A DNA stretch of 64,000 nucleotides, taken from positions 1,120,501 to 1,184,500 of the forward strand of contig NZ_CP072360.1 in NCBI RefSeq assembly GCF_018128065.1. The letters are read 5' to 3'. Position numbers and translations under genes: made by a program. Below, in pieces: positions 20,944 to 59,168 of the stretch. Position 1 is the stretch's first letter, and each line of letters opens with the position of its first letter. Source of the DNA: Prevotella melaninogenica. GTDB taxonomy: Bacteria > Bacteroidota > Bacteroidia > Bacteroidales > Bacteroidaceae. The notes under the pieces were generated by a model. That model made no database searches. It had not been told where the DNA came from and saw only the letters and a program-made list of their open reading frames with translations.

Positions 20944-21452
20944 TGCGAAAAATCATACCTTATATACTTCTGTCGATTCCTCTGTGCCTGCGTGCGCAGG
21001 GGAATCTGCCTTTACTCCAAATACCTGTGCTCGAACTCCTGCAATATCAGGTACAGAAAGGGAAGCGGACCGTTGCACCTTATCTTTTCAGTAAGTACGG
21101 ACTTAAGCAAATACCGGCAGAGTTGGTGGTCAATGGCAGTCGACAGCTTTGGGGATGGCACGTCAGTCCTAACACGGATTTTGACCCATCCAAACAACCA
21201 TTTTACAGGCTCTTTGCCAAGAAGGATAATTCAAGTATTGTCATCATTGACGATAGGGGAGGCACGTTGCAGATTGTCTTTTGGGATAAGCATTATTATC
21301 GTACTTTTGTGGCGGATCTTCAGTCACATGGCTATCAGCTGCAGCCTGTAAAGCCAGCGAACAACGTTCTCCGTTTTCAGCGTGTGGGCAGTTCGCTTGT
21401 CGCAGATGTGACAGTGTGGGCAGATATGTACGTCTTAGAGCTTCACAGCTAA
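20940..21452 (+). CDS. Exported protein of unknown function coupled to nadE
   Basis: No family was recognised. The 170-residue product begins with a signal peptide (MRKIIPYILLSIPLCLRAQ) and probably cuts after AQ. The mature part of about 150 residues is rich in beta-strand-type sequence and ends DVTVWADMYVLELHS. Two in-frame ATG codons (20940, 20943) are possible, and the first overlaps the nadE stop codon. The stop codon at 21450-21452 is immediately followed by sequence matching the interior of a mobile element, so the native 3' flank, and perhaps the last codons, may have been altered by that event. Confidence 0.75.
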   Translation: MMRKIIPYILLSIPLCLRAQGNLPLLQIPVLELLQYQVQKGKRTVAPYLFSKYGLKQIPAELVVNGSRQLWGWHVSPNTDFDPSKQPFYRLFAKKDNSSIVIIDDRGGTLQIVFWDKHYYRTFVADLQSHGYQLQPVKPANNVLRFQRVGSSLVADVTVWADMYVLELHS

Positions 21453-21814
21453 TGACGGATTTATCTACAAAGATAAAGAAGTTTGAGCTAAACAAGCTTC
21501 TACACACCTCCTTTTTACTCTTAGTATTACTACGTTTTGCCCACAATTCATTCCCTGTCATTCATATATCATACTGAATTTAACCCTCCGCACCATATGT
21601 GCTAACCCTCCGCACAACATGTGCAGAGTATCCGCACAACAGCAAATGATAGTAAACATTCACAAACATAGTATGAATTAAGACCATAAAACATCCTATT
21701 CCGTTGGCTAAAGAGTAAAACGCTAAAACTAAACTGAACAAATAACTTCTTTCCATGAATATAACAGATGTTATTCTAATCGAGTTAAACAACCCACACG
21801 ATTCGTTATGAAGC
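21453..21814. mobile_element. MITE-like element, copy B (5' truncated)
   Basis: From about 21453 to 21814 the sequence matches the inner and right parts of the complete elements at 34122 and 58732, including GAGCTAAACAAGCTTC, the palindromes with CCCTCCGCAC, and the right terminal repeat in degenerate form (ACCCACACGATTCGTTATGAAGCC). The left 24-bp terminal repeat and about 80 bases are absent. No target duplication can be tested. An open frame on the minus strand (21580-21861) is also present in copy C, but is interrupted in copy A and is not taken as a gene. Confidence 0.8.
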
Positions 21815-22083
21815 CTAAAAAATATGTTTGCATGTGTTATTATGTCTTGTGATACTCTCATGGCAATTGAATGTAAATCCTAAAATGAACACTTTGAAAT
21901 AATTTGTATTGATGATATTTTTCGTTATAAGCTCTTTGCGGTATAAAAAAAAGTTCGTATCTTTACACCTTGAAAAAGTGCGAAAAAGGCTCAGAAAGGA
22001 AATAAAGGCTATTGTGGGCAATTTTAGCCTTGCAAAGATGAGCTTGTTTGAGTGATAGAATTTTATAATAGAAAAAATATATA
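21815..22083 (+). promoter_or_regulatory. gyrA upstream region with promoter and leader hairpin
   Basis: TTTG at 21935-21938 and TATCTTTA at 21958-21965 are 19 bases apart, a near-consensus promoter (last G replaced by A). The predicted leader is about 110 bases and contains a small stem, AAGGCTA at 22005-22011 with TAGCCTT at 22025-22031. No gene is seen in the rest of the region. Confidence 0.5.
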
Positions 22084-33468: not shown

Positions 33469-34062
33469 ATGGATAGCGATAAATATAAGACTATAAAAGA
33501 GAAAGCGATTAGCGAGGGATATTACTCTGAAAAACGGAGTAAGTTCCTCGCTTTTGCGCATCATGTTGAATCTGTAGAAGAGGCTTTGGAGATAGTAAAA
33601 GAGTATCGTAAGAAATATTATGATGCTCGCCATTGTTGTTATGCGTATAGAGTAGGCTTTGTAGGGACAGAATTTCGTGCAAATGATGATGGAGAGCCAT
33701 CTTCAACAGCAGGTAAGCCTATCCTTGGACAAATTGACAGTTATGGATTAACCAATACGCTGATTTGTGTTATTCGTTATTATGGAGGAATAAACCTCGG
33801 TACTGGTGGCTTGATTGTTGCTTATCGTGAAGCAGCAGCAGATGCTTTAGCAAACAGTGAGATAGAAGAAAAGTTCATAGAAGAAGAAATAAAATATACA
33901 TTTACTTATCCCATGATGAACGATGTTATGCGAATCATAAAAGAAATGAATCCTCGCATCGTTAATCAAGTTTTTGACAATACTTGCGAAGTCATTCTTT
34001 CCATCAGGAAGGAGAAGGCTGAAGAACTTCGTATCCGATTAAAGAATTTATCCTTTGATTAA
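33469..34062 (+). CDS. YigZ/IMPACT family protein
   Basis: The 197-residue protein has the UPF0029 (IMPACT) N-terminal domain with the signature ANDDGEPSSTAGKPIL at about residues 67-82 and VIRYYGGINLGTGGLI near 102-117, followed by a small EF-G-like C-terminal domain. In E. coli the relative YigZ has been crystallised; the bacterial function is not settled. It follows DUF1015 by 20 bases and is probably in the same transcript. Start ATG at 33469 is the first of the frame. Confidence 0.92.
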   Translation: MDSDKYKTIKEKAISEGYYSEKRSKFLAFAHHVESVEEALEIVKEYRKKYYDARHCCYAYRVGFVGTEFRANDDGEPSSTAGKPILGQIDSYGLTNTLICVIRYYGGINLGTGGLIVAYREAAADALANSEIEEKFIEEEIKYTFTYPMMNDVMRIIKEMNPRIVNQVFDNTCEVILSIRKEKAEELRIRLKNLSFD

Positions 34063-34113: not shown

Positions 34114-34121
34114 AAATTTAT
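34114..34121. repeat. Left target-site duplication of element A
   Basis: AAATTTAT, repeated exactly at 34590-34597 on the other side of the element. Confidence 0.85.
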
Positions 34122-34589
34122 GGTTCTATAACGAATCGTGTGGGTAAATAGTTTTTCCTTGCCAGCGTTCCTATGTTTAATGGCTTTATGGCTAAACAGA
34201 TGAAGACGAATTAATCTACAAAGTATAAAGGAGTTTGAGCTAAACAAGCTTCTATACACCTCCTGTTTATTCTTAGTATTACAACATTTTGCTCACAATT
34301 TATCCCCTGTCATCCATATATCATAGTGAGTTTAACCCTCCGCACATGTGGTGTTAACCCTCCGCACCATATGTGCTAAGTACCTGCACCACATGTGCAG
34401 AGTATCAGCACAACAGCAAATGATGGTAAACATTCACATACTTTGTATGAATTAAGACCTTAAAACATCTTATTTTGTTGGCTAAAGAGTAAAACGCTAA
34501 AACTAAACTGAACAAATAACTTCTTTCTATGATTACAACAGATATTATTCTAATCGGGTCAAACAACCCACACGATTCGTTATAGAGCC
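34122..34589. mobile_element. MITE-like element, copy A (complete)
   Basis: The 468-bp element is bounded by 24-bp terminal inverted repeats, GGTTCTATAACGAATC... at 34122-34145 and its complement at 34566-34589 with one mismatch, and by 8-bp direct repeats AAATTTAT on both sides. The interior has no transposase. It contains several GCAC...GTGC palindromes at about 34340-34400, one unit more than the other copies. The 8-bp duplication and GGYTCT ends resemble the ISL3 insertion-sequence family; that assignment is inference. It fills most of the gap between the YigZ gene and tamB. Confidence 0.9.
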
Positions 34590-34597
34590 AAATTTAT

Positions 34598-34731: not shown

Positions 34732-37700
34732 ATGACTAACATATTCAATATAAAAAGGAGCTTGAAATGGTTGATTGCTATCGTTGCAACACCAGTCATT
34801 TTGTTTCTTATCCTTGTTGCTTTGCTATATTGTCCACCCATTCAAAATTGGGCTGTAAAGCATGTTACTGCTTATGTTTCAGAAAAAACTGGGATGGAGA
34901 TAAGCCTCAATCGAGTTAATCTCTCTTTTCCTTTAGACCTCCAGTTAGACGGACTAAAAATGCTTCGCTCCAATGACTCTATTCCTAATCAGAAAGATAC
35001 GGTGGCAGATGTACAGCATTTAGTAGCAAAGGTTGACTTGTTACCGCTATTCAAAAGAAGAGTAGAAGTAAACGAACTAACATTTACAAAGCTGAAGGCA
35101 AACACTGTTAATTTTATCGGTGACCTTCGTATTCGTGGAGATGTGCAACGTCTACATATTGTGAGTCATGCTGTTAATTTGGTTGGTGATTCTATTCGTG
35201 TAAACAAAGCCGATATTGAAGGTGGATGGGTTGACATTGCATTAGGTGATACCGTACCCGTAGACCCAAATAAACCGAAATTACTTTGGCGTATCAATAT
35301 TGATAAACTCAATCTTGCTAAAACCGATTTCCGTCTTCATATGCCTGGAGATACTATGAGCGTTCGTGCTAATTTCAAGAAAGCTATGGCAAAAGGAACT
35401 GAGCTTCTACTACACGACAATATATACAAAGTGGCAAACGTAGACTGGCAAGGAGGCAACTTAAGTTATGACAAAAACTATGTAAAACATGCAAGTGTCG
35501 TATTTGATGCTGCGCATATAGCCATGCAAGATGTCAATCTTGGAATAGATTCTTTCCAATATGCTGCTCCTAAAATCCATATGAATATTCGGACTGCCAA
35601 TATGAAAGAACGGAGTGGACTGATAGTAAAGGATTTCCATGGACATTTCTCTATGGATTCTACAAGTATCAATCTACCTGATTTATATTTCCGTCTACCT
35701 GGTACAGAACTGTCAGGACGTTTTAAGATGGATATGAATGCTTTTGCAGATAAGGATCCAGGACAGATAGCTACACAATTAGATGGTTTCCTGCACCTTG
35801 ATGACTTACGTCCGTTCTTAACCTCAGTACCTAAAAATATTTATCAAGCACTTCCTAATCAACGTATTATTGTAAAAGGTAAAATGGAAGGCAATCTTCG
35901 TTCAGCATCGTTTAATCAGCTTCGATTGGCTATGCCAGGTTATTTTAATCTTACAGGAACAGGCTGGATTGCTGATATGATGTCAGGTGCTGGTCATCTT
36001 CGTAGCGATTTAAAGCTGAAAGGGACAGCAAACAATTTAAGTTTTATTTCCAAGTTATTGCCACACAATGTACGCAAGACAATTGCTCTCCCACGTGGAG
36101 TAAACATAAATGGTGATGTCCATGTCAGAAAAAAACTTTATATGGGTAATATACAACTGACACAAGGTGGTGGATGCATCCGTATGAATGGAGCTTATAA
36201 TTCTTCTACAGAACTATATCGTCTTACAGCTGATGCTACTGCTTTTCCTGTGCAGCGTTTTTTACCAACCATGGGATTGTCAGCTTTTTCTGGAAGTATA
36301 AGAACTCAAGGACGAGGAACGGATTTCTTGAATCCAAAATCATCTACAAATCTAAGCTTACGTATTCGAAGTTTCAAATATGGTAAATATGTACTTGACG
36401 GATTGAATGGCGATATTTCAAAACATGGAGAACAATTATCTGCTCATGTCAATAGTACGAATCGAATGTTAGGTGGTAACTTCACTTATCAAGGTAGAGT
36501 GAACAGCAATCTTGTTGATGGTCACATTCGTGGTTGGTTACATCGTGTTGACTTGCATGCAATGGGAGTTATGACAGAGAGGTATGTTGTCTCTACATGG
36601 GCTGATGTTGATATACGCTCGGATATGAAGAATAATCATTATGTGAGTGGTCCACTTCGCTCTTTTCGTCTTCTGCAAGAGGGAAGAAAGAAAAGCTATC
36701 TCCTTGCTGCTGGTAACTTTGACATACGTGCTGATGTACACTCTAATAGTCTTGAAACACATTTAAAAGGAAATTTATCTGAAGCCGATTTGCAGGCATT
36801 CGGATTTATAGATAAGCATTATATAACCTCTGCTAAAGCAGATATTACTCTTCGTTCTGATATGAAGAAGTACTATGCTGTCAGCGGAAATGTTGGACAT
36901 CTATTGCTGAGTGAACTACGTAAGGGAAAGCGTGTACCATTAGTTGAAGGAAATTTTAATCTTGATGCAACAATGCGAGGTGATCAGATTGGAGGCTCAA
37001 TAAATGGTGTCTTTCCACGTGTAGACCTCTATCAGTTAGGAATCGTAGACAAGGCAATGTCAAGTAGTTTTACAGCAAACACCTCATTCGCTATGTCTGG
37101 CAAAGATGATTTGAATGTTCGTGGTTTGGTTGGGAATCTTCGTATCACAGATCAAAATCGGATTTATACACCAGGCGATGTGAAAATAGATCTTATGAGC
37201 AGACGCGATGCCGTATATGCGACCTTGGATGGTGGAGACTTTCATCTTAGTACTGCATTTAATAGTAGTGTGAACCAATTGACTGAAAATGGAATGAGGA
37301 TATATAAAACAATACGCAAACAACTTACAGATCGTCGTATTGACCAGCCAGCAATAATACGTCAGTTACCTTTAGGACACTTTACGTTACGCAGTGGACG
37401 TAATAACTTGCTTTCTAATTTATTAGCACAAGATGGCTATGCCTTTAGTCAGGCAGATATTAACTTAACGTCATCACCTCAAAAAGGACTTGATGGATAT
37501 ATTAGCGTTGATTCGTTGGTATATAATGATATTCATATTGACAGCATCAGAGCCGATCTAACCAGTGTTGATGGACAAGTGAACTATAAGCTATCAGTTG
37601 TAAACAATCCTAATAATTCTTATCCTTACCATGGTTATCTACAGGGTATCCTCTATGAACATGGTTTGCAAACACATGCAACAATCCTTGATAATAATGG

Positions 37701-58731: not shown

Positions 58732-59168
58732 GGTTCTATAACGAATCGTGTGGGTAAATAGTTTTTCCTTGCCAGCGTTCCTATGTTTACTGGCTTAGAT
58801 GAAGACGAATTAATCTACAAAAAGTATAAAGGAGTTTGAGCTAAACAAGCTTCTACACACCTCCTGTTTATTCTTAGTATTCCAACATCTTGCTCACAAT
58901 TTATCCCCTGTCATCCTTATATCATAGTGAATTTAACCCTTCGCACCATATGTGCTAACCCTCCGCACCACATGTGCAGAGTAACAGCACCACAGCAAAT
59001 GATGGTAAACATTCACAAACATAGTATGAATTAAGACCATAAGATATCCTATTCCGTTGGCTAAAGAGTAAAACACTAAAACTAAACTGAACAAATAATT
59101 TCTTTCTATGAATACAACAGATATTATTCTAATCGGGTCAAACAACCCACACGATTCGTTATAGAGCC
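58732..59168. mobile_element. MITE-like element, copy C (complete)
   Basis: The 437-bp element has the same 24-bp terminal inverted repeats as copy A (58732-58755 and 59145-59168) and perfect 8-bp flanking duplications ATAAAAAT. It is about 31 bases shorter than copy A, through fewer palindrome units (about 58937-58995) and a deletion near the left end. No transposase is encoded. The minus-strand open frame 58933-59205 crosses the element border and is not taken as a gene. Confidence 0.9.

Follow-up and report, generated by a model that had tools for sequence, protein, structure and literature searches.

Target duplications of 8 bp are typical of insertion sequences (ISs) of the ISL3 family, and repetitive extragenic palindromes and BIMEs are short palindromes that are found between genes at high copy number. 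Nine papers mention ISL3 and miniature elements (MITEs) together, one of them on Microcystis (PMC11448079), so MITEs of ISL3 type may already have been described in other organisms. A term search finds neither ISL3 nor Prevotella in the main text of a 2024 review of prokaryotic MITEs (PMC10969869). The nearest published analogue found for the element examined here is BrickBuilt of Porphyromonas gingivalis, taken together with MITE464/PgRS of that species. It is described (PMC4596501) as an intergenic MITE with 19 copies in ATCC 33277, an internal 23-nt tandem repeat, ends that match IS5-family elements, and irregular flanking duplications. Among the titles and abstract openings of the papers listed (20 of 1,652 in one listing, 10 of 11 in another), none dealt specifically with MITEs of Prevotella or with the 22-nt repeat considered below.

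The element analysed here lies in a stretch of 64,000 nucleotides from Prevotella melaninogenica, the whole of which is referred to as the window. It is very likely a non-autonomous MITE of ISL3 type, one of about 26 copies moved by an ISL3 transposase acting in trans, the source of which has since been lost from the strain.

Extent, ends and setting of the element

The element occupies positions 34122–34589 of the window (+ strand) and is 468 bp long, beginning with GG and ending with CC. It includes no open frame of note, the sole frame of at least 60 aa in the ORF listing that touches it being one of 60 aa. The left terminal inverted repeat (GGTTCTATAACGAATCGTGTGGGT, 34122–34145, + strand) is identical to the left end of an ISL3 element from Tannerella, and the right one (34566–34589, − strand, on which it reads GGCTCTATAACGAATCGTGTGGGT) shares 24/24 positions with the left end of an ISL3 element from a congener. 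When taken as 34121–34145 and 34566–34590, the inverted ends are 25 nt long and complementary at 24/25 positions (96%). Perfect copies of AAATTTAT flank the element at 34114–34121 and 34590–34597, which lies between two + strand neighbours, a gene that ends at 34062 and a frame of 1714 aa that starts at 34732. The short length, absence of coding content and terminal inverted repeats expected of a MITE are all present.

An earlier note on this DNA had described a 468-bp element with near-perfect inverted ends and perfect AAATTTAT duplications, and this is confirmed. It had also held that these features prove movement by a transposase not encoded in the element. The duplications do record an earlier insertion, although the identity of the transposase responsible is something that we infer.

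A dispersed family of about 26 copies

The genome that includes the window consists of two contigs (3.34 Mb, 99.97% complete). Scoring of 40 of the 104 first-look candidates showed that the element belongs to a family of at least about 26 copies, scattered over both contigs. This count is made up of 26 stretches with E < 1e-60, two of which are the halves of one split copy, and a weaker pair of matches at C1:930 kb, apparently a decayed copy. Besides the element itself, the window includes two of these copies. One, at 58732–59168 (+ strand), is 437 bp long, retains both ends and has perfect ATAAAAAT duplications on both sides; the other, recognised by a genome match at about 21445–21818 (+ strand), is truncated at the left.

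The flanks were surveyed at the 26 strong loci, of which the 17 two-ended copies were kept and the nine without a recognised end pair were dropped. The 8-bp duplication is perfect in five of the 17 and has no more than one mismatch in 10/17, and in control pairs made up of flanks from different copies no more than one mismatch was seen in 4/272. For the five perfect copies, a duplication length of 8 bp fits better than 5, 6, 7, 9 or 10 bp, and their five 8-bp targets are 92.5% A+T. Many dispersed copies and a target duplication of constant length, here 8 bp, are further properties of a MITE. The seven two-ended copies with at least two flank mismatches and the 9/26 loci without an end pair count against the explanation favoured here. 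Chance as the origin of the ends and duplications of the window element is excluded, because the element recurs about 26 times, the 17-nt end core is in excess over its reversed control (58 matches against 14 in this genome, with up to 3 mismatches allowed) and the duplications are in excess over the cross-pairs.

When 21 copies were compared with their majority consensus, they were 92.4–96.8% identical to it. The closest pair shares 97.4% identity and no two are identical. The burst therefore looks old, and nothing in the divergence of the 21 copies points to very recent movement. None of the 21 lies inside a frame of at least 90 aa as delimited by a crude ORF call, and a neighbouring frame enters the copy by 31 and 51 nt at two loci. 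Several copies are truncated or broken up by another IS. The copy at C1:38.1–40.7 kb (L068, G000 C1:37000–42000) is split by an IS66 element (PF05717, PF03050) that starts GTAAGCATCC and is flanked by two copies of GTTTATTC. A copy in the congener G385 is 93% identical over the first 119 bp and then runs into the same GTAAGCATCC IS66 end, followed by N. Two isolated matches that resemble the end, at C2:1083 kb and C2:669 kb, for which no partner end was found in the stretches fetched, were excluded from the copies. At the former (L069, G000 C2:1083237) the MITE-like end has a TATAACGAATCGTGTG core with 3 mismatches in 22 nt, and no partner is present in the 3.5-kb stretch.

ISL3 elements with matching ends

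The earlier note had assigned the element to the ISL3 family on its GGYTCT ends and 8-bp duplication, and had placed the parent element outside the window. The first assignment is supported by full elements with matching ends and an ISL3 transposase, which were found in a Tannerella MAG and in the congener G179. In a search of the genome collection that may omit records near the window's own genome, the exact 25-mer end is present in three stretches. That in the Tannerella MAG (contig L032) forms the left terminus of an ISL3 element of 1296 bp, the transposase of which is 412 aa long and matches PF01610 (5e-68) and NF033550 (above cut-off). The flanks of this copy do not share an 8-bp duplication. 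Stretches L031 and L033, in which the 25-mer also occurs, break off approximately 280 and 380 bases beyond it. The exact 22-nt end was found in 4/299 genomes of the genus, the own genome included; this set is a subset of a larger group and the count covers exact matches only.

The ISL3 element of G179 (L109:228–1522) is 1295 bp long with the 8-bp GGAATGTC on both sides, and its transposase (PF01610, 3.5e-65; NF033550 above cut-off) is 50% identical to that from Tannerella. Both putative parent transposases thus include the ISL3 DDE domain (PF01610), and the 8-bp duplication is shared by the MITE copies and the IS in G179. The two ends of the MITE match the left end of the G179 element at 24/24 and 24/25 positions, and both are nearer to the left end of the IS (96–100%) than to its right end (83–85%). 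The MITE therefore has its ends in common with autonomous elements of a named family. G179 also includes two tandem ISL3 copies (L111, C1 about 2.712–2.715 Mb) separated by a 5-bp gap (GGAAT), with TTTAATGT at both outer sides; one of these copies contains an ambiguous base, given the X in its reading frames. A further copy, at 1.698 Mb (L105), has undergone a deletion and retains transposase residues 1–86.

When the G179 transposase was used to search the 299 genomes, 17 had matches with E ≤ 1e-30, and among the matches listed outside G179 identity is 27–32%, apart from a 111-aa stretch at 56% in G225. The exact MITE end is absent from viral contigs, again in a search from which records close to the window's genome may be missing, and a relative of the G179 transposase was not confirmed in them either. 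Among 3017 plasmid and 38 phage records, all relatives are <60% identical to this transposase, the nearest plasmid-borne ones sharing 43% identity. Carriage by a virus or plasmid was rejected on these grounds. A search by sequence found no solved structure of a relative.

Transposases encoded by the strain

The parent element is indeed not in the window, and no close transposase is present elsewhere in the assembly, where the proteins most like the Tannerella and G179 transposases share 26–32% and 26–30% identity with them, respectively. This genome does encode three ISL3-type transposases of its own (at C2:945 kb, C2:702 kb and C1:29 kb), and it could be argued that these moved the copies. 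All three match PF01610, and that at C2:945 kb lies between the inverted arms GATTCTTCCGGAATTTGGAGTGATA and GGTTCTTCAGGAATTTGGAGTGATA. However, their identity to transposases that have matching ends is the low 26–32% noted above, and the C2:945-kb frame (300 aa) covers just positions 1–112 of the 240 in PF01610 and is therefore broken. In 4-kb stretches around the three genes the + scan found no MITE-like ends, and the − scan found one unpaired match with 2 mismatches (L078) but no end pair. Movement by these transposases is highly improbable, and they were rejected as the source. A recognisable parent transposase seems no longer to be encoded by this strain, as judged from the assembled sequence.

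Origin of the interior

Miniatures that arose by simple internal deletion are found in the genus. The congeners G162 and G395 include elements of 224 and 223 bp, respectively, that correspond to IS positions 1–109 joined to 1181–1295, with 78–83% identity to the IS and MITE-type ends, though no perfect 8-bp duplication. The deletion joint is common to both (L222 in G162 and L229 in G395). This IS family therefore yields miniatures in the genus, and has done so more than once.

Such remnants lend some credit to the notion that the window element likewise arose from an ISL3 element by plain internal deletion and is not a MITE with a foreign interior, but its sequence makes that very doubtful. 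Matches to the two full ISs are limited to about 25 bp (within about 31 bp) of each end, so that IS sequence is not retained further inside, and the remaining ~420 bp of the interior match neither the Tannerella nor the G179 IS. In the searches made, no full ISL3 element with MITE positions 26–440 inside it was found. In G179, where the IS is present, the five MITE matches listed of eight are all confined to the ends. Further, both ends of the MITE resemble the left end of the IS more than its right end. A simple internal-deletion origin was rejected on the ~25-bp matches, and the interior of the MITE was presumably captured and not derived from the IS.

The 22-nt palindromic array

The more unusual part of the window element is the array at 34332–34419, made up of about four palindromic units of 22 nt. 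The first two (34332–34353 and 34354–34375) were identified by a repeat finder and the last two were read by eye. The unit is approximately CCTCCGCACNANNNGTGYTNAG and often occurs as two to four units head-to-tail. With up to 2 mismatches allowed, the pattern has 172 matches in the own genome, 194 in G148, 202 in G162 and 167 in G364; as a palindromic unit can match both strands, matches outnumber units. In the other ten of the 14 genomes searched there are 38 matches in G326, 17 in G395 and 0–4 in each of the remaining eight, and controls with the reversed pattern gave 0–2 matches across the 14. Loci with the unit are L029, L030, L183–L185, L224–L226, L228, L231–L234, L239–L242, L245–L249 and L252.

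In a 464-kb sample (400 kb fetched plus the window), a crude ORF call places all 16 arrays between genes, with no clear preference for gene orientation, and 5/16 are within MITE copies. The unit thus also occurs outside the MITE. Arrays in the relatives are without MITE ends, and the array in the MITE interior is therefore probably a copy of a repeat native to this group. In G140, a lone MITE-type end is followed directly by a 22-nt array, and the 3-kb stretch around it contains no partner end.

The array has an RNA fold z of −4.8. For the whole MITE as single-stranded DNA z is −5.6, in part because of the inverted ends. The one match to a known structured RNA family, which scored 19 bits (E 0.56) where the gathering score is 61, was rejected. 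Promoter-like and terminator-like sites in the MITE are not above the level in shuffles, and a promoter or terminator role was rejected for this reason.

Two accounts give the array a role. One is that an ISL3 MITE took up the group's 22-nt array and that the burst then spread a host DNA signal, putatively a protein-binding or RNA-processing site, to ~26 intergenic sites on both replicons; we consider this unlikely. The other, which we rate as very unlikely, is that the repeat is kept for a regulatory or structural host function exerted via the array and that the transposon ends are historical. The consistently intergenic position of the MITE copies (0/21 in frames) and of the sampled arrays (16/16), together with the 167–202 unit matches in each of the four related genomes, would fit a host function, but MITEs are usually intergenic (PMC10969869), the copies are 3–8% off consensus with several truncated or IS-interrupted, and the promoter-like and terminator-like sites do not exceed shuffles.

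Distribution and the empty site

The earlier note had called for comparison with the empty site in related strains. In the congeners G148, G162 and G364 both flanking genes are kept in order, with 83–89% identity, and the MITE is absent from between them (G364 has a chance match of 14 bp). Alignment is good immediately after the element, but the stretch before it differs, with ~500 bp of unlike sequence (1.4 kb in G364). The empty site is therefore clear on one side only. The unlike sequence in these three (L216, L217 and L218) includes imperfect inverted repeats (TTGTAAAAGGTGC and GCACCTTTTAGAA in G148) and is possibly a further repeat family.

The body of the MITE was found in 1/40 genomes, namely its own, when up to 16 candidates were scored per genome, and in 2/398, its own and G385, when the best two were scored per genome. 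It was not seen in G148, G162 or G364 among the best 40 of 110–115 candidates scored. As G385 is outside the three syntenic relatives, transfer of the MITE between species is possible, and the family may have entered this lineage by horizontal transfer instead of originating in it.

Proposed history and significance

Going by these sequence comparisons, an ISL3 (DDE) transposase acting in trans most likely moved the MITE. Its source would have been a full-length element, once present in the lineage, whose 25-bp ends were nearly identical to those of the MITE; the enzyme would have inserted the MITE at A+T-rich intergenic 8-bp targets and so duplicated them. The family would then have expanded to ~26 copies, probably in one older burst, after which the source of transposase would have been lost from the strain, leaving the copies to drift apart. 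The ~26 copies, the lack of a sign of recent activity and the non-IS interior with its palindromic array go beyond what the earlier note had reported. An ISL3-type miniature family is thereby documented in a Prevotella, as are the family from which it probably derives and its present status as an orphan in this strain, and the copies are usable markers for comparing strains.

Comparison with known systems

Members of the ISL3 family, namely the G179 and Tannerella MAG elements and the ISAtc1/ISAtc2 records, resemble the MITE in having ends of the form GGYTCT...TGGGTA of ~25 bp. On Acidithiobacillus caldus plasmids, the sequence GGTTCTTCGACGTTTCATGTGGGTA adjoining an ISAtc2-family gene matches the right end of the G179 element (GGGTCTATAACGTTTCATGTGGGTA) at 21/25 positions, and an ISAtc1-family record includes a 28-nt inverted pair starting CAGGCTCTTCG. 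Unlike these ISs, the MITE is 468 bp long, is without a transposase, and has two ends that both resemble the left end of the IS. The 224- and 223-bp derivatives in G162 and G395 share the ends and the parent family with it but, in contrast to the MITE, are IS-derived over their whole length.

BrickBuilt is like the window MITE in being intergenic, in having a similar copy number and in including a short internal tandem repeat (23 nt versus 22 nt). It differs in having IS5-type ends and irregular duplications where the MITE has ISL3-type ends and 8-bp duplications. The ends of the window MITE read GGYTCTATAACG, compared by eye with GAGACCTTTGCA in Table 2 of PMC4596501, and does not have IS5-type ends. 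The 23-nt unit given there (AGAYCATARTATCCTCTCRTRTG) looks unrelated to the 22-nt unit, which also occurs outside the MITE. Repetitive extragenic palindromes and BIMEs share with the 22-nt unit the properties of short, intergenic, high-copy palindromes, whereas the 22-nt arrays have a head-to-tail spacing of 22 nt. Set beside these systems, the window element represents a currently orphan MITE family, and is for the most part an ordinary kind of mobile DNA.
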